A DNA stretch of 51,760 nt from Bdellovibrionota bacterium (GTDB lineage Bacteria > Bdellovibrionota > UBA1018 > CAUJDS01): contig CAUJDS010000023.1 in the NCBI GenBank assembly GCA_963169695.1, forward strand, positions 1 through 51,760, in the 5' to 3' direction. Shown here in pieces: positions 3,395-12,436 of the stretch; the first letter of the stretch is position 1, and every line of letters begins with the position of its first letter. Both the position numbers and the translations under genes were made by a program. Below the pieces are notes generated by a model. That model was not told the origin of the DNA and did not search any database. It was given only the letters and a program-made list of their open reading frames with translations.

Positions 3395-4084
3395 TCATCT
3401 TCGCTTCCACGTTCTGTCCTTGGTCGCACCCTCTGAGTGCAATCGCGGAAAGCTTTGCAGATCCCGCTGGGCTTGTCTCCAAGTCACACGCCCACCCAGA
3501 GCTTCGATATAGGCACGAGTGGTAAAGGGCTCACCACTCTTGGCAAGCCGCTGAAGGACTCGCAATCGCACTTCGGTTTTTACCGCAGTACGTTTTGCCC
3601 AAGGCGCTTTGTTGATCCACGCATCGTTTGCAAAATAGCCCCACGCTGCAAAATCACGGCTTGGTTGATTCACCCATTCTTGGGCTATCTTTCCGACGGG
3701 CGACACCAATTGAAAATAGAAAAGCTGAGGCGAGTCGGGCTGGACTTCCGCAAGCATGAGCTTTTTCCAGGCCTTCCATCGTTGAAGCTCAGAACCAATG
3801 CACCTTTTCTCTAGCCGAAGGAGCGCTTCAACTTGATCGAGCAACACGCCCCAGACGGCTGGCCATGGTGACTTCAGGATTTCGACATTCATTGCTAGCG
3901 GATGGATAATTTGCCAATGCTGACTCAGCCATCGCGTGAAGATCTCGCCGAGTCGAGGGTCGAATCGTATCCATTGAGCCCAAAGCAGAAGCTCCGCTGT
4001 AGTAGGGATATGGTCTTTTTTTTGAAGTGCTTCATAAGGACCTGCTAGATCACTAAGAAGAGGTATGCGGTCGGCGCCCTTCAT
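3395..4084 (-). CDS. Winged-helix-type protein, partner of a nucleotidyltransferase
   Basis: This encodes 229 residues. The first 140 are Trp-rich, helical and unfamiliar. The last 60 look like a winged helix-turn-helix: a helix (LRVLQRLAKSG), then FTTRAYIEALGG, the probable recognition helix TWRQAQRDLQS, and a short wing rich in basic residues near the C-terminus (KDRTWKRR). The start overlaps the stop of the nucleotidyltransferase gene as ATGA, so the two are translationally coupled. In AbiE-type systems a winged-helix antitoxin is paired with a nucleotidyltransferase. The order and domain placement differ here, because in AbiE the winged-helix gene comes first. A DNA-binding antitoxin or repressor is the most likely role. 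That is inference. Confidence 0.72.
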   Translation of the reverse strand: MKGADRIPLLSDLAGPYEALQKKDHIPTTAELLLWAQWIRFDPRLGEIFTRWLSQHWQIIHPLAMNVEILKSPWPAVWGVLLDQVEALLRLEKRCIGSELQRWKAWKKLMLAEVQPDSPQLFYFQLVSPVGKIAQEWVNQPSRDFAAWGYFANDAWINKAPWAKRTAVKTEVRLRVLQRLAKSGEPFTTRAYIEALGGRVTWRQAQRDLQSFPRLHSEGATKDRTWKRR

Positions 4085-4593
4085 GGCAAATCTTGAACCT
4101 CGTCCAAGAAGTCCAAAGCCTTAGCTACTCCTGGTATCGCGCGCTTTTTAAGGGATTCGAGGTGGTCTTCTACCCATTGCAACTCGGCGCCGGCCTTCAC
4201 CAGTGCTCGAGCATGACCGAGGTCCTTCGGACGATGGGCCATGCACTTCAGGATGAGCAAGTCGTTTTTGGAGAGGCCCTTTGCCTCAAGCTGCTTGCCT
4301 TGAAAGATGGGCACCAGTCGATCGCCATAATCCGCCGGAAGCGAGAACATAAAGGTGCTGAAATAAGGATTCAGCCAATCACCTGGCAAACCCAACTCCA
4401 TTGCGACCTCTTTGACCAAAAGGTCAAACTCGCCCAAGGGCATCCCCTTCGTCACCGCATCAATGTCATGAGTAGCTATTGGAAAGTGATGGGCCAATAC
4501 CATTGCGCCACCTCCCCCAACAATGAGTTGAACGGGTTGGGGACATTTGCGATCCAAGGCGCCTAGGGCTTTCTGCATCTGTTCTGCATTCAT
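4081..4593 (-). CDS. DUF6036/AbiEii-like nucleotidyltransferase
   Basis: This encodes 170 residues. The motif VGGGGAMVLAHHF (about residues 25-37) followed by ATHDIDAVTKG carries the Gly-rich loop and the D-x-D metal-binding pair of minimal nucleotidyltransferases of the DUF6036 or AbiEii-like group. KNDLLILKCMAHRPKDLGH, further on, matches the helical part seen in such proteins. Those relatives are small nucleotide-transferring enzymes often found in toxin-antitoxin or abortive-infection modules. The gene is first in a two-gene operon with the winged-helix gene (4-base overlap). It has no Shine-Dalgarno and its promoter ends 6 bases from the ATG. A toxin role is inferred. A housekeeping nucleotidyltransferase is possible. 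Confidence 0.82.
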   Translation of the reverse strand: MNAEQMQKALGALDRKCPQPVQLIVGGGGAMVLAHHFPIATHDIDAVTKGMPLGEFDLLVKEVAMELGLPGDWLNPYFSTFMFSLPADYGDRLVPIFQGKQLEAKGLSKNDLLILKCMAHRPKDLGHARALVKAGAELQWVEDHLESLKKRAIPGVAKALDFLDEVQDLP

Positions 4594-4824: not shown

Positions 4825-7344
4825 TTAGAGGTCCTGAAGGTATCCCCGCGTATTGCCAAGTAGCACGTCGGCACAGGGATCGTTGGATGGGCCATTGCTC
4901 AGACGATGCTTTGCCAGCGCAAATCCCACAGCATCTTCCAATTCTGCAATCGCCTGGCGATATCCCGAGCCAGCCTTAAAGAACTTTGATGTCAAGGCGT
5001 CTAAAAGTTCCTCTCGATCTCCTACGAGTACATTAATTCCCAAATCTCGCTGATAGGCATCCAAGGTCTCTGCAAGCTTGAGGCCCAAGACTTCTTTGAA
5101 TTCGTGAGTAGTCTTGGGTGGCAAAAAAAGAAGGATGCGTTCCATACGGTCGACCAGGAATTCAGACAATCCGTCTCGGGCCATTTCATCCCTCAATGCC
5201 TTTTCCTCCGGCGTCGCAGAAGTCCCCCTCAATGCGGCAGCGCGAGGTTGAAAAGTCATCGTGCCACCGCCGTGGGAGCCTGTGGATCTCAAAACTGCGT
5301 CTTGTCCCGCATTGGTGGTGAAAAACATGCTTGCGCCTGCCGTGCGAATCAAGCGTCCCACCTTAGGACCTCTAGCTTCTCCATTCATGGAAGCTTGTAA
5401 GGTAAAAGAATCACTATCCATCAAGTTCAGAAGTGCATCTTGCACCCAGATAGGAGCCTTCTCGATCTCGTCAAAAAGAAAAACGGTAAAAGCATTGATC
5501 TGAATGGCGCGCGCAACTTCTCCTAGGAGTCGATCCACTGCATTCTGACCGAGGTATTGGTTCATGCTGACTTTTTTGCAGGGAAGGCCAAGCGCCGATG
5601 CATAGGCCTTGACGAGATGGGTTTTGCCAAGGCCCTTAGGTCCGGCGAGAAGGGCTCTGATCCTTGGCTTGGTTCGGTCATGGGTCCCAGCTAGGATCCG
5701 AGTCGTGGTTCGTTCTAGTGCGTCTTTGATTTCTGCCAAACCCCATACTCTTTGATCCAAACGAGCACGAAAAACCTTGAGCCTATTGGGAATCGCTTCT
5801 GGGCTGAACTCAGCGAGATCTATTTGATACAGCCGATTGGCAGCGACCCGCAGATCTTGGATGGTAAGACTCGATGACTGGCGACCATCACGGGGGAGCT
5901 GAGACAAAGCGTCGCTCAAAAGTCGCGTTGCCTTGGAGGGCTGCACCCCAATGGCATCAAACTCTTCTGAGAGACGGATGGCTTCTTGTGCAACTTCGAT
6001 AGCAAGCGAAGAGCCAAATGCTACTTGTCCCCAGTTCTGAAGCAATTTGGGAATATCCGTTGGATCTGGAGGCTTTTTATGCAGGATGGATAATCGACTT
6101 CTCAACGCTGGGTCTGCTCCAAAGGCGTGATCAAACTGTTCTTCCGTGGAGGTTCCGATGATTCGGATGGATCCTTTCCTAAGGTGAGGCTTCAGTTCTT
6201 CAAAGAAGTCATCGGGCTTGTTTAAATGAGCTCCAGACCCACGTAGAGTATGCATCTCGTCAAAGAAAAGGATGGCCCGATTCTCCCTGGCGTAGGCAAT
6301 GAGCGCGTTGAGACGAATTTCAAAAACGCCGATAAATCGAGTCCCCGCAACTAAATGACTCGCATTGACGGACCATATTTCAGTGCTGGCCGGAATATCA
6401 GGCGCAAAGCTCCCCTTGCCTACTTCCGCAGCAAACGATCGCACGAGCTCTGTTTTTCCTGATCCAGAATCACCCAGAATAACAACGCTGGGTGATTCTT
6501 TTCTGCCGAGAGCCAGCCGAAGCGCCGTAAGGTCTTGAGGATCAGCTACATAGGTGGAATCGCCCTTCACCTCGCCAACAAGTTCCCTGAAGTGGCTTGC
6601 AATATAGTCCCGAGCATTCACTAGATTGCCTTGCTCATCGATCACTTCATTCTTTTTGGCGCTCTTGGCGGACTTTTTGACGGGATCTTTGACCGCCGTC
6701 TCATCCGAAGCGTCATGGACCTCATCGCCAATAATCTGGAACTTCTTTGGGTGATAGCGACCGAAGGAGAGCAATCCAGCATCATTCAACGATACTCGCT
6801 TTTCTCCAGCTGCAAACTCTCCCAGCTTCCAAATCATCAGATCCCCTCGAATAAGATAGAAATGGTGCCTGGTTTCATTTCCAAATTTAACAAAAACGAT
6901 TTGATAATTTTGATTTTGGTATTCGAGAGTCGCATAAGCCGGTTCAGCAATGCCTTGGTTAAAATCTCCATAAGCATCAAAGAATCTATAGCGTCCGTCT
7001 CCAGTGACTGCGAGAAACCTGTCATCAAACCGCGTGGTCACTTGGATTTCCATCTTTGGTAGGAGAAACGCGGCGTAGGGTTTCTTTCCAAGAGTTACTT
7101 GTTTGGGCTTTCTCTGGGAGTCAGAAGGGATGAACCACGTCCTGCCATTGGCTATAAGAGTCTCCTCCCCTTCGACATTTCGGTAGTAGATCCCATCATC
7201 GATTCGAGTAATGAGCTTGGCGCCGTTGGCAAAGGTATTGACGTACTCCCCTTCTTTGGGCGGATCGTCTTGCGCGACGGACGTTCCTACCACCATCAAA
7301 AATGCCAAAATTCCCTTGAGTCCGATCATTTCCCTAGGGGACAT
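4825..7344 (-). CDS. Clp-like double AAA+ ATPase with N-terminal signal sequence
   Basis: This encodes 839 residues. The N-terminus (MIGLKGILAFLMVVGTSVAQ after five residues) looks like a signal peptide. An ATG five codons later (7329) may be the true start, as neither start has a good Shine-Dalgarno. Residues about 30-270 are an unfamiliar beta-rich domain. The first AAA+ module has Walker A GDSGSGKTE, Walker B ILFFDEMHTL and a ClpA-like sensor region GTSTEEQF. The second has Walker A GPKGLGKTH and Walker B FLFDEIEKAP, followed by a typical Clp C-terminal domain. ClpA/ClpB proteins remodel proteins in the cytoplasm using ATP, so an export signal is odd. The segment may instead be a membrane anchor with the ATPase facing the cytoplasm. 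No ClpP-type partner is adjacent. Confidence 0.85.
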   Translation of the reverse strand: MSPREMIGLKGILAFLMVVGTSVAQDDPPKEGEYVNTFANGAKLITRIDDGIYYRNVEGEETLIANGRTWFIPSDSQRKPKQVTLGKKPYAAFLLPKMEIQVTTRFDDRFLAVTGDGRYRFFDAYGDFNQGIAEPAYATLEYQNQNYQIVFVKFGNETRHHFYLIRGDLMIWKLGEFAAGEKRVSLNDAGLLSFGRYHPKKFQIIGDEVHDASDETAVKDPVKKSAKSAKKNEVIDEQGNLVNARDYIASHFRELVGEVKGDSTYVADPQDLTALRLALGRKESPSVVILGDSGSGKTELVRSFAAEVGKGSFAPDIPASTEIWSVNASHLVAGTRFIGVFEIRLNALIAYARENRAILFFDEMHTLRGSGAHLNKPDDFFEELKPHLRKGSIRIIGTSTEEQFDHAFGADPALRSRLSILHKKPPDPTDIPKLLQNWGQVAFGSSLAIEVAQEAIRLSEEFDAIGVQPSKATRLLSDALSQLPRDGRQSSSLTIQDLRVAANRLYQIDLAEFSPEAIPNRLKVFRARLDQRVWGLAEIKDALERTTTRILAGTHDRTKPRIRALLAGPKGLGKTHLVKAYASALGLPCKKVSMNQYLGQNAVDRLLGEVARAIQINAFTVFLFDEIEKAPIWVQDALLNLMDSDSFTLQASMNGEARGPKVGRLIRTAGASMFFTTNAGQDAVLRSTGSHGGGTMTFQPRAAALRGTSATPEEKALRDEMARDGLSEFLVDRMERILLFLPPKTTHEFKEVLGLKLAETLDAYQRDLGINVLVGDREELLDALTSKFFKAGSGYRQAIAELEDAVGFALAKHRLSNGPSNDPCADVLLGNTRGYLQDL

Positions 7345-7407: not shown

Positions 7408-9408
7408 CTACCCCATCGACCAATCTGCCCATGGAAAGCGCCAATCAATCCAATCATTGGCGTCAGGCACACCTTCCTGAACTAAGAGCGCACGCAAGGA
7501 CTCCAAACAAATCTGGCCGTGGCAACGACCAGATCCAATCCGAGTCCGAGCGATCACAGAATGGAACGATTGCAACCCTGTCTCCCTAATCTTTGCCATC
7601 ACTTCTGCCATGTTCTTATTGAGGCAGGGGCAGAGCAGGGCTTCGGGTTTGGATCTCTGAGTAGCAAGTGGATCCAAACGAATCTGACTTCCACGATGAA
7701 GGTCCGTTGCACAGGCCGTCTTACGAACCCCATCAACCGTTACGGTGCAAAGTCCGCAGGTACCATCACCACAAAGAAGCATGTCTCCGGGACGCTGGTA
7801 TCCCGTCTCAAACAGCGCGCGCGATATCGTAAGTCCCTCACGCACGGTTCTTCGATCTCCATCTAATGTCACATCTACCCATTTGCTATCGGGATGACCG
7901 GGTGTCATTGCAGCAGAAGGCATGTCATTGACTTCCACTTCCTGCTTCACCTTCTGAAACCAACGTGCCTCCCAAAGAAGATGGGCCGGAGCCTTGATTC
8001 GAAGGAGCTGAACTTCTTCGGGCAAAATTTCTACGGGCTTCTCTTTGACTTTGCGTGTGTTCTCGAATGCATCTTTGGGACGAACGTATTCTAAGACGCG
8101 ACCGGATTCCAAAAGCTGACCCTGACGATTGAGTAGCGATACCATCGTGCCAACTTTGGGCGCAGCCCCGCCTCGCCAAGGAAATGTGATCTCAGCGGCG
8201 CCACCGCTTTCTTGCTCGCGAATCATAACCACCGCACCTGCAGGGCACGCAATCACGCAGAGTCCGCATCCAATGCATTTATCTTCGAGAAGAAACTGTG
8301 TGGTTTCGGTCGGACCTCTCACTATGTCGATGGCTTGCACTGGGCAAGCCTTCTGACACTCACGACAAGCAATCTTCTCCAGACACTCCAAGGATGCTCT
8401 GTCTTGCTTAAATGGTTGCTGCTGAGGAATGCCAGGAAAAGAACGAAGGGTCGTGAGATCTTCTTCCTCCAACCATTTGCCACGAAAGGATGGCGAAAAG
8501 GGGTGTTCTAGGTGAGCCCGCAGGTCCTGAAGTTTGCGTTTAGAATCTTTGAGTGTCTTTTGAATCCATTCTTTTTTTTCGCCCAGATCAGCAACCAAGG
8601 ATTTAGCAATTTTTGAAGCAAGGTAGCGTCCGGCTTGTTCTTCTATAACCCAGTCTTCACTGCTTTCTTTCTCAGTAAGTGCGGCCATTTGATCAAACTC
8701 AAAAAGAAACGAGCCGGTGGGATACTCCCGAAAAGGATCTCTGTCGTAAAACGGTCCCACAGAAATAACTCGACTGGTCTCAATAAGTCGTACGCCCTGT
8801 GAGTCCTCGAGGCGCAACTCAGATAGGTGCGCATTTTTCTGAGTGAGGCTCAGAGGTGTGGCTTCGGCGATTTGGCCTCCCAATTCCTCAAAGCGACGAC
8901 GATAGACTTCCCATCCTGCAAAGCGTTTCCCTCCCCATTGTGCTCGGGATTCTACGCAAAGGACTTGCCGTGAAAGCCCTCTTTCTAAGAGCTGAATTCC
9001 TAGTTGAAGGGCGCGATTGCCAGATCCCAGAAGAACGGTGATTTGACTCCAATGTACTTGGCCATCTTGAATCAGATCAATGGCGGTGTCATAGGGAATG
9101 AGCGCCTGCGAATACCAACCAGAGAATGGAGCTGGCAATGCTACGGGTCGGACCACCTTCACAACTGATCGGGCGTGAATACGATGAATGCGTCCCTGAA
9201 GGTCCTCGATCATTACAATGCCATTGGTCTGCGGAAGCGGTAGTACTCCCTTGACCTTCATGCTTGCGCCACCAAATAATCCAACTTTGAGGCCCACCTG
9301 CGAACAAATAGCAGAAAGCGTCCTTATCCCCACCGACGGCCAGTGCTTGACTCGCGGACCGGCGACGATAGCCACATCAAAAAATCCATCTCGAACGGAA
9401 TAACTCAT
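7408..9408 (-). CDS. Multi-domain Fe-S/FAD oxidoreductase (HcnA/HcnB or opine-oxidase-like fusion)
   Basis: This encodes 666 residues. The first half is a nucleotide-binding oxidoreductase domain with a second dinucleotide loop near residue 126 (VLLGSGNRALQLG). Two [4Fe-4S] ferredoxin motifs follow: one slightly divergent (CLEKIACRECQKACP) and one standard (CIGCGLCVIACPAG). Next is a plant-type [2Fe-2S] motif (CGDGTCGLC with a later Cys). Last is a BFD-like domain with CPC and CHGQIC. The set resembles subunits of hydrogen cyanide synthase, opine oxidase and sarcosine-oxidase-like enzymes, fused with extra ferredoxin domains. It overlaps the upstream flavoprotein gene by 4 bases, so the two probably form a complex that passes electrons from an amine or amino-acid-like substrate. 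Substrate and acceptor cannot be read from the sequence. Confidence 0.85.
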   Translation of the reverse strand: MSYSVRDGFFDVAIVAGPRVKHWPSVGIRTLSAICSQVGLKVGLFGGASMKVKGVLPLPQTNGIVMIEDLQGRIHRIHARSVVKVVRPVALPAPFSGWYSQALIPYDTAIDLIQDGQVHWSQITVLLGSGNRALQLGIQLLERGLSRQVLCVESRAQWGGKRFAGWEVYRRRFEELGGQIAEATPLSLTQKNAHLSELRLEDSQGVRLIETSRVISVGPFYDRDPFREYPTGSFLFEFDQMAALTEKESSEDWVIEEQAGRYLASKIAKSLVADLGEKKEWIQKTLKDSKRKLQDLRAHLEHPFSPSFRGKWLEEEDLTTLRSFPGIPQQQPFKQDRASLECLEKIACRECQKACPVQAIDIVRGPTETTQFLLEDKCIGCGLCVIACPAGAVVMIREQESGGAAEITFPWRGGAAPKVGTMVSLLNRQGQLLESGRVLEYVRPKDAFENTRKVKEKPVEILPEEVQLLRIKAPAHLLWEARWFQKVKQEVEVNDMPSAAMTPGHPDSKWVDVTLDGDRRTVREGLTISRALFETGYQRPGDMLLCGDGTCGLCTVTVDGVRKTACATDLHRGSQIRLDPLATQRSKPEALLCPCLNKNMAEVMAKIRETGLQSFHSVIARTRIGSGRCHGQICLESLRALLVQEGVPDANDWIDWRFPWADWSMG

Positions 9409-10586
9409 GCCCAGTCCTCCACGGATTTTCTCGCGGTTTCTACCACCATTGCCAAAGGACCATCACTTGGCAGAGCCAACTTGATTGGAATCTTGCGATC
9501 TTGAAAGGAATGGATTTGCTGCGAAGATTGCCCCCAATCGAGCAAGGCACGGGCATGAACTTCGCGAACCGTAAATAATTCCCAATTCAAAAAATCCCGC
9601 ATCAAGCGCGACAACCCCGTGAATGAATCACCCGACAGCCACCACTTTCCTAACTCGGAAGGCAACCAATCGCGAATACCTACTCGTTGCACTGGTCGTA
9701 GTATCTTAAACAGATCATGCGACCCTTCTTTGGTTGGGGCTCCTTCAAAGTCTGCCCAGACGAGAGCTTCTTCAAATACACCAACCGTATTAGGATCAAT
9801 GCGATCGCGCGAAAGGAGCGACCACTCTTCCCAAACGCGAACTCCCTCGGGCTGCTTGGGTACCCGAAAGCGAGAAAGTACCCAACTCGTCAATCTTGGT
9901 GTCCAAAAAGCTACCAATCCTTGATGAATACGACGAGTAGTCAACTCGCCCGAAGCATAATACCGAACCCCACCTGGAATAAACTGCACATCACTTACTG
10001 AGGTGACGCAACTTTCTTTGCCCAATCGCTCCGCAACATAGTCACGCAAACCTTCTCGATAGCGACCAACATCCACATCACATAGCTTGGGTAACAAAAT
10101 GGCGCGAGCGTCCCCCTTGAGAGTTTGCGAAGCTCCAGGAAAACGTTTGAACGCCGAAAGCCCATGCAGCTCTTGCGGAACCAAACCGTGATCCAACGAC
10201 TCCACAAATAGCGACTCGAGCCGTTGCCAATAGGCAACAGGATCCTGTATGCCCACACTTGCACTGGCGCTCATCCACAGCCGAGATCGGGCTCGAACAT
10301 GAGGCGCAAGTGCATCTCGAAATTCGCTGGCTTTGCGCTCACTCGCCTTCTCATCCCAGTACTCGATTGCACCCGGAAAATCTGGGCGTAGGGTGTTCAG
10401 CATCCACTCAGGTGTGCTGCGCTCGAAGTGCCATTCCGGATCCATTGGCAGTTCTGAGTTTTCTAAAAAAAAATCGCTATCGGGATTGAGAATCAGTGGA
10501 CGCTTTCCATGAGCAAGTAAGTGCGCTGCCGCCACGAGTGGCGCAACACCCGTACCCACTAGCGCAACATCACAGTCACTGCGCAT
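9405..10586 (-). CDS. FAD/NAD(P)-binding oxidoreductase-like protein
   Basis: This encodes 393 residues. The N-terminus (DCDVALVGTGVAPLVAAAHL) is a Rossmann dinucleotide-binding motif of the GxGxxP type, as in FAD-dependent amine and amino-acid oxidases. The rest is poorly conserved by eye. It overlaps the preceding gene by 11 bases and the following Fe-S protein by 4. Coupling and size fit a catalytic flavoprotein subunit feeding the Fe-S/BFD protein, like the HcnC-type partner in hydrogen cyanide synthase. That is inferred from layout. No substrate-binding residues are recognised. Confidence 0.78.
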   Translation of the reverse strand: MRSDCDVALVGTGVAPLVAAAHLLAHGKRPLILNPDSDFFLENSELPMDPEWHFERSTPEWMLNTLRPDFPGAIEYWDEKASERKASEFRDALAPHVRARSRLWMSASASVGIQDPVAYWQRLESLFVESLDHGLVPQELHGLSAFKRFPGASQTLKGDARAILLPKLCDVDVGRYREGLRDYVAERLGKESCVTSVSDVQFIPGGVRYYASGELTTRRIHQGLVAFWTPRLTSWVLSRFRVPKQPEGVRVWEEWSLLSRDRIDPNTVGVFEEALVWADFEGAPTKEGSHDLFKILRPVQRVGIRDWLPSELGKWWLSGDSFTGLSRLMRDFLNWELFTVREVHARALLDWGQSSQQIHSFQDRKIPIKLALPSDGPLAMVVETARKSVEDWA

Positions 10587-11871
10587 CCGATTTTCCGGTC
10601 TTGTTGAGGTGTTCCATTAGGCTACCCATCACCCGTCGCATGGCCACCCGGAGTTGGGCACTTTTGTACTCGGCGTGCGAACTTCGTCCTTGTTCGCTCT
10701 CGAGCTTGCTTTTTTCGTCCATGATCTGAACTTCAAATGGAAAAAAGAATCGCACTTCCTTTTGAAGGTATTGAAGGTCAATCCTCTCGATCAGGTCGCC
10801 AGCGGAGTCTGGCAATTTTTCTTTCCTAGAAAATTCCTTCAATTGATTGACCTGATCGTAGAGAGGATTCTTGAGTTTGATCAACTGGCGACAGGTGAAT
10901 TGAATTGCCTGAAAGAAGTCGCTGGAATGAGGGTTCTCTTTATTTTTTTTGGAATCGGGTGCCGATACGATCGACTGCAACTTTGCGACGAGTGCGGGTT
11001 CATCCAATTCACCTTGGTCAACTCGACTGAGGAGTCCCTCCAGTTCGGGCTTAAGGCTTTCAACATCCACCAAAGTATTTCGAGACCGTGAAGGCTTGAT
11101 ATTGGGAGGCATTACCATCAGCGATTCCTTCAGGTATTTGAGCGCCTGAAGGGATTCTAGTCTTCCGGGAGTCACCAGGCGTACGCCCACTTGATCAAAG
11201 ATATCGTCAACGACGTGTTCTGCCTTATGCAGCATTTTCATCAGAACCGAATCACGCGCCTTCTTGGGCTTTGTTTCGAAGGACACCAAATAAACGCGCA
11301 AGGGATCCTTTTCGGAGGTCCCAAGATACAGACGTCCCTCTGGATCACGTTGCACAAATTTATAGAATCGATCCAGAATCTGTTTCTGAATGTCAGTGAA
11401 GTAAGGCGTGCGATAGTCTCGATCGACGTGGGCAATGGTGTGAACTACCTTCAGTACCGCACAGGCCCAAGCTCTAAGCTCTTGACCTTGAGGGTCATTG
11501 CTCTGCCCAGGATAAGTCTGCGCTGCTATCAGAAGTAAGTCTTTGACATCGGTAAGCTCAGAAATCTTTCGAGGGATCTCAAGGGCAAGGCCATCCGGGT
11601 TCTGAGGATACAAAAAGTGCTTTCGAATAAAATTCAGCGCTTCCTGAAAATTCCCCATCACTTCGGCGCTTTCAATGGGATCGGCACCGTCATAGCCGTA
11701 GGCCTTCATAAACCGATCGGCATCTTCATGATTGTGAAGCGGAAATCCCGACAGTCCAGTATGGCTATCAATGATCGACTTTCCGCCCACCATGACATCG
11801 AGGACTTCCCATCGAAAATCGTATTTCAGGTGAATCAGATCAGCCCGAAGTTCTTTTTTTGATTTCTCCAT
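10576..11871 (-). CDS. Divergent RelA/SpoT-like nucleotidyltransferase-fold protein
   Basis: This encodes 431 residues, first gene of a three-gene operon. From about residue 200 it shows a pattern like (p)ppGpp synthetase domains: ETKPKKARDSVLMKML (like the R-x-K...S-I-x-x-K segment), DDIFDQVGVRLVT (like D-L-x-G-x-R) and FEVQIMDE followed 15 or so residues later by HAEYK (like E-I-Q-I...H-x-x-YK). A long insertion separates these segments. The N-terminal 190 residues are helical and contain no HD hydrolase motif that I can see. I recall a conserved family named TIGR04552 in myxobacteria and bdellovibrios that may be this one, unchecked. Synthetase activity is not established. The start has a GAGGGG Shine-Dalgarno about 11 bases upstream. 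Confidence 0.75.
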   Translation of the reverse strand: MEKSKKELRADLIHLKYDFRWEVLDVMVGGKSIIDSHTGLSGFPLHNHEDADRFMKAYGYDGADPIESAEVMGNFQEALNFIRKHFLYPQNPDGLALEIPRKISELTDVKDLLLIAAQTYPGQSNDPQGQELRAWACAVLKVVHTIAHVDRDYRTPYFTDIQKQILDRFYKFVQRDPEGRLYLGTSEKDPLRVYLVSFETKPKKARDSVLMKMLHKAEHVVDDIFDQVGVRLVTPGRLESLQALKYLKESLMVMPPNIKPSRSRNTLVDVESLKPELEGLLSRVDQGELDEPALVAKLQSIVSAPDSKKNKENPHSSDFFQAIQFTCRQLIKLKNPLYDQVNQLKEFSRKEKLPDSAGDLIERIDLQYLQKEVRFFFPFEVQIMDEKSKLESEQGRSSHAEYKSAQLRVAMRRVMGSLMEHLNKTGKSDAQ

Positions 11872-11965
11872 GATCTTTGGACCCCTCTTTAACTTACTAA
11901 ACTCCTACCTCCGCATGCAATCCTTTGGTACCTTCACAGGAGATTTCGGAAAGATAAAACAACGC

Positions 11966-12436
11966 ATGAAGTCTAAGAATTATTTTTTTTCTACCCTAAT
12001 CGCCACCGGCCTGGGTGCTGGTTTCTCGCCCAAGGCTCCAGGCACTGCAGGCACTCTGGTTGGTTGGGCTCTTCGCTGGGCAACCCTAAACTGGAGCTAC
12101 CCGTGGCAATGGGCGCTCTGGTCTGTCCTTACGGTTTTAGGAATTTGGGCAGCTCAACAATATGATGAACAACACCATAGCAGGGATCATTCCCGTATTG
12201 TGATTGATGAAGTTCTGGGATTTGCAATTGCTAGTGCAAGTTGCACCACCCATATGCAGTTTGCCTTAGCCTTTCTTTTATTTCGGTTCTTCGACATCGT
12301 GAAGCCACCGCCCATCAGTGCCTTAGATCGATTGTCAAAAAATCAGCCCAATCCCAATGGTCTTTCAGTTATTTTGGATGACGCCATGGCAGGACTGATA
12401 AGTTGGCTGATCTTGAAACTTCTGGTGACGGGATGA
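11966..12436 (+). CDS. pgpA: Phosphatidylglycerophosphatase A
   Basis: PgpA removes the phosphate of phosphatidylglycerophosphate in the inner membrane, making phosphatidylglycerol. The sequence has GAGFSPKAPGTAGTLVG near the N-terminus, IVIDEVLGF in the middle, FRFFDIVKPPPI and a final ILDDAMAG, all typical of the family. Hydrophobic segments lie between them. I chose ATG 11966 (156 aa, close to the family size) over an upstream in-frame start at 11870. The upstream start would add 32 unfamiliar residues and overlap the divergent gene. The stop overlaps the next gene as ATGA. Confidence 0.88.
   Translation: MKSKNYFFSTLIATGLGAGFSPKAPGTAGTLVGWALRWATLNWSYPWQWALWSVLTVLGIWAAQQYDEQHHSRDHSRIVIDEVLGFAIASASCTTHMQFALAFLLFRFFDIVKPPPISALDRLSKNQPNPNGLSVILDDAMAGLISWLILKLLVTG

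Follow-up and report, generated by a model that had tools for sequence, protein, structure and literature searches.

A protein of predicted RelA/SpoT fold widespread in Bdellovibrionota is encoded, in one order, in overlapping frames with genes for a putative Fe-S-rich relative of amine dehydrogenases

The 51,760-nucleotide stretch of a Bdellovibrionota bacterium examined here (contig CAUJDS010000023.1; referred to as the window) carries three overlapping genes on its minus strand. Gene 1 (10576..11871) is an open reading frame of 431 amino acids whose product belongs to TIGR04562/TIGR04552 and includes a synthetase domain of the RelA/SpoT type. Gene 2 (9405..10586, 393 amino acids) encodes a diverged Rossmann protein of the DAO/amine-oxidase kind and gene 3 (7408..9408, 666 amino acids) an Fe-S subunit resembling the alpha subunits of heterotetrameric sarcosine oxidase (SoxA) and archaeal proline dehydrogenase (PDH1). 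We propose that gene 1 is a second synthetase of the RSH superfamily, probably active, that genes 2 and 3 specify an Fe-S complex, and that in the window's order the three proteins are made together, the activity of gene 1 being geared to that complex or to the substrate of the complex. The probability that we attach to this proposal as a whole is about 0.45. The closest known systems are the RelP, RelQ and Rel synthetases for gene 1 and the PDH1/SoxA dehydrogenases for the pair.

In the proposed scheme the gene 1 protein, widespread in the phylum, would consist of a helical N-terminal region and a synthetase domain that uses ATP as the donor of a pyrophosphate or nucleotidyl group and passes it to an acceptor possibly different from GDP or GTP. 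The products of genes 2 and 3 would form a two-subunit electron-transfer complex descended from enzymes resembling sarcosine oxidase and proline dehydrogenase, in which the gene 3 subunit would hold as many as four predicted Fe-S clusters. With their frames overlapping downstream of gene 1, the three proteins would probably be produced together, and the most likely reason for joint production would be that gene 1 activity is tuned to the Fe-S complex or to what that complex uses as substrate. We infer this functional link from adjacency and overlap alone.

The family assignment of gene 1 is clear, since its product passes both curated NCBIfam cut-offs (362 bits for TIGR04562, cut-off 140; 343.6 bits for TIGR04552, cut-off 125), but the family label names no function. 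A possible function is suggested by the predicted fold. In the AlphaFold2 model (mean pLDDT 74.7) residues 152-404, encoded at 10660..11418 on the minus strand, align by VIA with B. subtilis SAS1 (5ded_E) at Z 11.3, followed by M. tuberculosis Rel at 11.0 and RelSeq at 10.5. The first 21 rows of the VIA alignment are all synthetases of the Rel/RelA/SpoT/RelP/RelQ type (Z 11.3-7.4) and the next row drops to Z 5.4. Twenty of the 21 are named as synthetases by their titles; the remaining one, smu.1046c (3l9d), we take to be a synthetase as well. Similarity to both the long Rel enzymes and the small RelP/RelQ enzymes thus lies in the synthetase fold. In place of the HD hydrolase of long Rel, gene 1 has a mostly helical segment (residues 1-150); none of the 50 VIA rows shown is confined to this segment above Z 4.2, a search that barely tests the region. 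HD hydrolase, TGS and ACT domains were absent from the Pfam scan of gene 1, which returned RelA_SpoT as the only family at E <= 1. That family is also matched at E <= 0.1 by all 21 aligned gene 1 sequences. Alignments used here comprise 21 of 30 sequences for gene 1, 22 of 28 for gene 2 and 22 of 29 for gene 3. A RelA/SpoT synthetase fold for the C-terminal half of gene 1 is well supported by the model.

Residue conservation was examined in 74 distinct gene 1 sequences, of which 30 came from the window's class (the window's own included), 20 from other classes and 24 from other fetched neighbourhoods. K204, K212, D226, G229, R231, N265, R328, E380, Q382 and Y402 are present in all 74, while K201 (73), S208 (70) and H399 (73) are nearly invariant. 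For comparison we used the genome's own Rel, which reads GRAKHFYSIFKKM...NDIIAFR...EIQIRT...GIAAHWSYK. The positions four residues before and after S208 fall on two lysines of Rel; D226 lines up with the Asp in NDIIAFR, and E380 with the Glu in EIQIRT. Both hhalign and hmmsearch recovered the final block, in which EVQIMD...SSHAEYK of gene 1 faces EIQIRT...AAHWKYK of Rel. The key K/S/K/D/R/E/Q positions of the RSH superfamily are in register with gene 1, at weak alignment scores. We assume that K243, S247, K251, D264 and E323 of RelSeq are the catalytic counterparts. D226 (codon 11194..11196, minus strand, in a domain alignment of weak score) would then correspond to the synthetase Asp, D264, and E380, the first residue of EVQ (codon 10732..10734, minus strand), presumably to the synthetase Glu, E323. 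On conservation, the catalytic Asp and Glu and the Lys and Ser on the ATP side appear to be in place in gene 1, with roles that we assume and alignments that are weak. Catalysis by gene 1 is therefore probable on its conserved residues and modelled fold. The sequence-only reading of this DNA described gene 1 as a divergent RelA/SpoT-like protein and staked that description on a match of its predicted fold to (p)ppGpp synthetases; the fold does match, the key residues are conserved, and the description stands.

The genes are tightly joined. The stop codon of gene 1 interlocks with the ATG of gene 2 in an overlap of 11 bases, where the junction reads ...cggATGCGCAGTGA..., and genes 2 and 3 overlap by 4 bases (ATGA), with GGAGG just upstream of the gene 3 start, inside gene 2. 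The coupling by 11- and 4-base overlaps noted earlier is thus confirmed in the reading frames and junction sequences. Linkage was then counted by taking, for each genome of the class, its best match. Gene 1 was found in 55 genomes, gene 2 in 48, gene 3 in 52 and all three in 46; the gene 3 count, 55 of 58 at first, leaves out G002, G003 and G043, where the sole match is a short ferredoxin-like stretch. Genes 1 and 2 adjoin on the same strand in 46 of the 47 genomes that have both, and the trio adjoins in 43 of 46. The three exceptions are G033 with a split match, G040 with about 1 kb between genes 2 and 3, and G041 with gene 1 on another contig. The extra sequence in G040 lies between the gene 2 and gene 3 matches at C227:5923-6923.

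In 41 of the 46 named loci all three genes were found as open reading frames. When the gene 2 start is taken at its conserved position, the gene 1 and gene 2 frames overlap in 40 of these 41 loci, by 1-29 and commonly 14 bases; in the remaining locus, L139, they are 11 bases apart. Longest-frame starts gave an overlap in 41/41, a choice that favours overlap. Each of the three proteins is 35-58% identical to the relatives in its own alignment and the gene order is kept nevertheless, so the arrangement is not due to chance. In the same 41 loci the distance to pgpA ranges from an overlap (longest-frame starts) to 7.8 kb, and in six of them pgpA was not found. The trio also persists in the fetched stretches L102 and L136, which have no recA or pgpA match. 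In family f6 a diverged gene 3 (29% identical) occupies the same place, and two of its loci, L097 and L098, also have a weak gene 2 (E 4e-5 and 2e-5).

At the scale of the phylum the picture is different. Gene 1 occurs in 55 of 58 class genomes (35/35 good ones) and in 317 of 368 phylum genomes (218/234 good ones), whereas TIGR04552 was found in none of 14 control genomes. The best 80 of its 239 relatives in genome contigs are mostly from metagenome-assembled genomes titled Bdellovibrionales, Bacteriovoracaceae, Oligoflexia and similar. Gene 3 was detected at E 1e-25 in only 54 of the 368 genomes, 52 of them in the window's order and two (family f25) with a fused SoxA-SoxB type of protein; the gene 2-gene 3 pair was not found outside the order in this phylum scan. 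Members of the TIGR04562/TIGR04552 family are thus accompanied by gene 3 in the window's order only. With gene 1 in 317 genomes and gene 3 in 54, the former has the look of an old gene of the core, and the redox pair that of a later, order-specific partner. The expectation that the three genes stay together is borne out within the order and fails for the phylum, where gene 1 stands without the pair in most relatives, the very observation that the sequence-only reading had named as telling against it; in the Bacteriovoracaceae-type loci inspected, for example, the next gene after gene 1 lies on the opposite strand. The trio is therefore an arrangement specific to the order rather than the form that characterizes gene 1.

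This distribution also weighs against a functional link. Because most of the phylum retains gene 1 but not the pair, the most serious alternative is an operon of convenience. Here gene 1 would be a core housekeeping enzyme, and a diverged amino-acid or amine dehydrogenase would have landed behind its promoter in the ancestor of the order; the overlaps would ensure equal translation and imply no joint function. Genome G027, which belongs to the order, keeps gene 1 and lacks both other genes. Gene order around recA is conserved anyway, so that adjacency is weaker evidence of joint function than it would otherwise be. A rate comparison gave no help to the link either: among 80 loci (L113-L192), 50 had a long enough gene 1 and recA, and the 22 of these that lie in the order were compared. 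The G027 locus L168 has the third highest rate of gene 1 relative to recA (1.73), both loci that exceed it (1.81) possess genes 2 and 3, and no clear effect of the loss of the pair on the rate of gene 1 was seen in these 22 loci. What follows gene 1 elsewhere differs widely. Gene 1 looks monocistronic in the loci of Bacteriovoracaceae type that were inspected, and in nearly all of them the opposite-strand gene after it is alpha/beta-hydrolase-like by eye. Among 20 loci of other classes a PlsC-like acyltransferase follows in five (L222-L225 and L228; four tested with Pfam) and a gene that is GYF-like by eye and then a GPAT-like gene in four (L214-L216 and L232; one GPAT tested), and other downstream genes are, by eye, nucleosidase-like or outer-membrane-like. 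However, convenience does not readily explain why genes 1 and 2 overlap in 40 of 41 loci despite protein identities of 35-58%, also where the other neighbours are not found nearby, or why family f6 retains a very diverged pair in the same place. We consider an operon of convenience a strong contender that falls somewhat short of an even chance.

Two observations on these loci may be added. The neighbourhood of gene 1 repeatedly involves phospholipid synthesis, with acyltransferases in other classes and a divergent pgpA as the usual neighbour in the window's class. In G027 (L099/L168), a genome of 2.0 Mb, gene 1 is shortened and the variable insertion in its acceptor loop, described below, is almost gone.

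Of the redox pair, we consider gene 3 first. Pfam and NCBIfam scans of its product reveal 4Fe-4S, 2Fe-2S and BFD-like parts, and 16 Fe-S cysteines are invariant in all 22 aligned sequences, eight in the Fer4 part, four in the Fer2 part and four in the BFD-like part. Residues 342-388 (8245..8385, minus strand), matched by Fer4 models, contain the eight cysteines expected for two [4Fe-4S] clusters. A Fer2_4-type domain at residues 510-577 (7678..7881, minus strand) provides C546, C551, C554 and C566 for a predicted [2Fe-2S] cluster, and a BFD-like domain at residues 593-634 (7507..7632, minus strand) provides C593, C595, C629 and C634 for another. The BFD-like domain aligns with the BFD part of the fused protein from G355, one of the two f25 genomes, and a GlpA match covers residues 568-651. 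The predicted structure (pLDDT 82.0, pTM 0.84) follows two dehydrogenase alpha subunits over nearly the whole chain, that of L-proline dehydrogenase PDH1 (1y56_A; Z 16.1, 303 residues, rmsd 5.3) and that of sarcosine oxidase (2gag_A/1vrq_A; Z 15.2, 336 residues, rmsd 5.2). NfnABC rows tie with these in score (top Z 16.6), but the NfnABC and thioredoxin-reductase rows cover only the first ~270-414 residues. In agreement with this, hhalign aligns columns 76-642 of gene 3 with the SoxA-like half of the fused G355 protein (99.6%, E 2.7e-24). Gene 3 thus has the fold and the domain set of SoxA/PDH1 alpha, a Rossmann pair and an Fe-S/BFD part, and as in those systems a gene for a DAO-like partner adjoins it.

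The two flavin sites are less regular. The second Rossmann loop of gene 3, which we take to be of the NAD(P) type, is retained as LGSGNRA at residues 127-133 (9010..9030, minus strand) and as [LF]G[ST][GS][NGS]xA in 22/22. The first dinucleotide loop, canonical and FAD-binding in SoxA and PDH1 alpha, is lost and mostly replaced by an AGPRVxxWPSxG-like sequence; GxGxx[GA] is absent from the first 60 residues in 20 of 22 sequences and lies at a different place in the other two. FAD bound in the first Rossmann domain of gene 3 is doubtful on this basis. Gene 2 has diverged strongly from the partner subunits of these dehydrogenases. The window's own protein has no Pfam match, and DAO is found at E <= 0.1 in eight of the 22 aligned sequences, the window's not among them (best 7e-7, residues 6-203 of the L066 protein). 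When three gene 2 members and one f6 gene 2 were scanned singly, one passed the DAO cut-off (29.5 of 27.9 bits) and three gave no family at E <= 0.01. The nucleotide-binding loop reads GTGVAPL (10536..10556, minus strand), with the third Gly/Ala of GxGxx[GA] replaced. The canonical motif occurs in the first 35 residues of none of the 22 sequences, all of which have GTGxA[PST] instead. When a profile of gene 2 was compared with the PDB, its matches fell largely on the initial ~30-70 residues of flavoproteins and Rab GDI, with no E value under 0.069; Rab GDI is FAD-free. Only 29 residues of gene 2 aligned by hhalign with the DAO half of the G355 protein. The tie to DAO is thus limited to the N-terminal part of gene 2, which counts against our proposal, and bound FAD in gene 2 is uncertain.

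Because the FAD loops of both proteins are altered, the term flavoprotein is unproven. Of the flavoprotein and large Fe-S/BFD protein suggested earlier, the second is well recognizable in the 4Fe-4S, 2Fe-2S and BFD-like parts of gene 3, whereas the first is uncertain for gene 2 of the window, whose loop is non-canonical and whose relatives match DAO in 8/22. The suggested amine-oxidase-like electron chain was right in outline, and the pair is, as judged from motifs and modelled fold, an Fe-S-rich relative of amine and amino-acid dehydrogenases with altered flavin sites that is linked to a gene of RSH fold.

One may nevertheless ask whether genes 2 and 3 encode a normal FAD-dependent dehydrogenase of the sarcosine, proline or glycine type, with changed loops that still bind FAD. 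The predicted fold of gene 3 along PDH1/SoxA alpha, the DAO matches in 8/22 gene 2 sequences and the NAD(P)-type loop kept in 22/22 gene 3 sequences are all compatible with this, as is the fused G355 relative, which has both ordinary flavoprotein domains. Speaking against it are the absence of GxGxx[GA] from the start of gene 2 in 22/22 and its presence in only 2/22 gene 3 sequences, both elsewhere. The idea is credible, though we would not quite put it at even odds. The fused SoxA-Fer4-BFD-SoxB-like protein with its ordinary flavoprotein domains occurs in the f25 genomes G355 and G356 (L264:30-3548 and L263:3-2672). In G355 it is 1172 amino acids long with an N-terminal Fer2, unlike gene 3, where Fer2 is located between the Fer4 part and BFD; in G356 it is interrupted by the contig end.

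Turning to what gene 1 catalyzes, it should be considered that it makes no alarmone at all, but modifies tRNA or protein, or is a non-catalytic binding protein. Enzymes of the toxSAS group such as FaRel2 and CapRel modify tRNA. The genome has a separate RelA_SpoT gene with a frame of 734 amino acids, and a RelA_SpoT match at E <= 1e-10 is present in 50 of 57 class genomes (34/35 good ones), with a frame of at least 675 amino acids in 49/50. Gene 1 is therefore not the sole synthetase-like gene but an extra core one. The acceptor-side loop is rebuilt: where Rel has YQSLH, gene 1 has the invariant N265, a variable insertion and then Y/F320...Q324, position 320 being Tyr in 69 of 74 sequences and Phe in the window's protein. 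If the register is right, which is uncertain across the insertion, Q324 takes the place of Rel's His. The helical N-terminus has conserved residues of its own, H144 (74/74), H148 (73/74) and D152 (72/74).

Other results count against our reading of gene 1. The window's gene 1 reaches only 22.4 bits with Pfam RelA_SpoT (E 1.5e-4), below the cut-off of 27 bits, which was exceeded by four of ten relatives scanned singly. A PDB sequence search with gene 1 alone gave 0 matches, and a profile search gave one at E 1.4, which is no synthetase. With the model, Foldseek placed RelP and other small synthetases on top, at E no better than 0.26. Direct alignments of gene 1 with Rel are weak (hhalign probability 13.6%; 8.7 bits and E 0.0075 for the window protein). 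Stretches of the model with pLDDT below 50 include 206-226, 257-263 and 399-407; the first and last of these span S208, K212, D226, H399 and Y402, so the geometry of the active site is not established. A dead enzyme, however, is at odds with the preserved metal- and ATP-side positions, whose roles we assume, and a toxin with a presence in 218 of 234 good genomes, which would be untypical. That gene 1 makes no alarmone is an option that we rate as tenable, on balance less likely than the two alternatives above.

Short RelA_SpoT frames of 361-375 amino acids, possibly small synthetases, were noticed in three genomes (G007:C410, G049:C27 and G055:C395); in G007 the short frame is the only one, and in G049 and G055 it stands beside a long Rel.

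A bolder variant holds that the trio is a redox-controlled nucleotide-signalling module. The pair would be a redox sensor, an amine-dehydrogenase scaffold that has lost normal flavin chemistry, kept all four Fe-S clusters and directly controls gene 1, a second, phylum-specific synthetase of RelA/SpoT fold making a messenger other than (p)ppGpp, but this we regard as improbable.

The published record on the gene 1 family is thin in the literature searched. The name TIGR04562 was not mentioned there, and TIGR04552 was found in one paper, where a table records DOE51_RS08710 ('TIGR04552 family protein') of Bdellovibrio sp. NC01 as carrying a small indel in the evolved population B (PMC9888234). 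The RSH classification distinguishes 30 subgroups, and its main text has no word starting with bdello, myxococc or deltaproteobacteria (PMC3153485). A mobile origin was considered and rejected. Gene 1 had no match in plasmids, and no relative was confirmed in viral contigs; the single match in a phage collection, MW495066.1, looks like bacterial DNA. This entry ('Microcystis phage MaAM05', 273,876 bases) holds a gene 1 homologue 34.7% identical to the window's (within the stretch L266, 115540-132622) among secF, secDF, glyS, mtgA, gatD and acpS, and appears to be a bacterial chromosome filed as a phage.

In the window, gene 1 is divergent from pgpA-cinA-recA. The pgpA gene (11870..12436, plus strand; PgpA 130.7 bits), with its true start probably at the ATG at 11966, lies outside the operon and is the divergent neighbour of gene 1 in most of the class and Bacteriovoracaceae-type loci examined. 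A scan for promoters and terminators yielded no more sites than shuffled sequences. On the other side of the trio, 4825-7344 (minus strand) encodes an 839-amino-acid ClpA-like protein that contains two AAA domains and, by eye, an N-terminus resembling a signal peptide; it was considered as a fourth operon member and rejected, having no match in 100 loci (L093-L192) at E 1e-8. Further on, at 3395-4593 (minus strand), are two small overlapping genes of 229 and 170 amino acids with no NCBIfam match, the second of which looks nucleotidyltransferase-like by eye (GGGGAMVLAHH...THDID). The two possibly form a pair of toxin-antitoxin type.

The signalling module tied to metabolism that was first suggested for this locus is thus possible only as an order-specific elaboration of a much more widespread gene. 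The presence of gene 1 in 218 of 234 good genomes of the phylum, accompanied by a normal Rel in nearly all genomes inspected from the class, points to a core chemistry of nucleotides or RNA, so far unstudied, in predatory bacteria and related lineages. Its coupling to an Fe-S redox pair in one order offers a concrete handle on what gene 1 senses or serves. If the proposed relation between gene 1 and the pair is true, the trio could link the redox state of the cell to nucleotide signalling in the order that has the operon.

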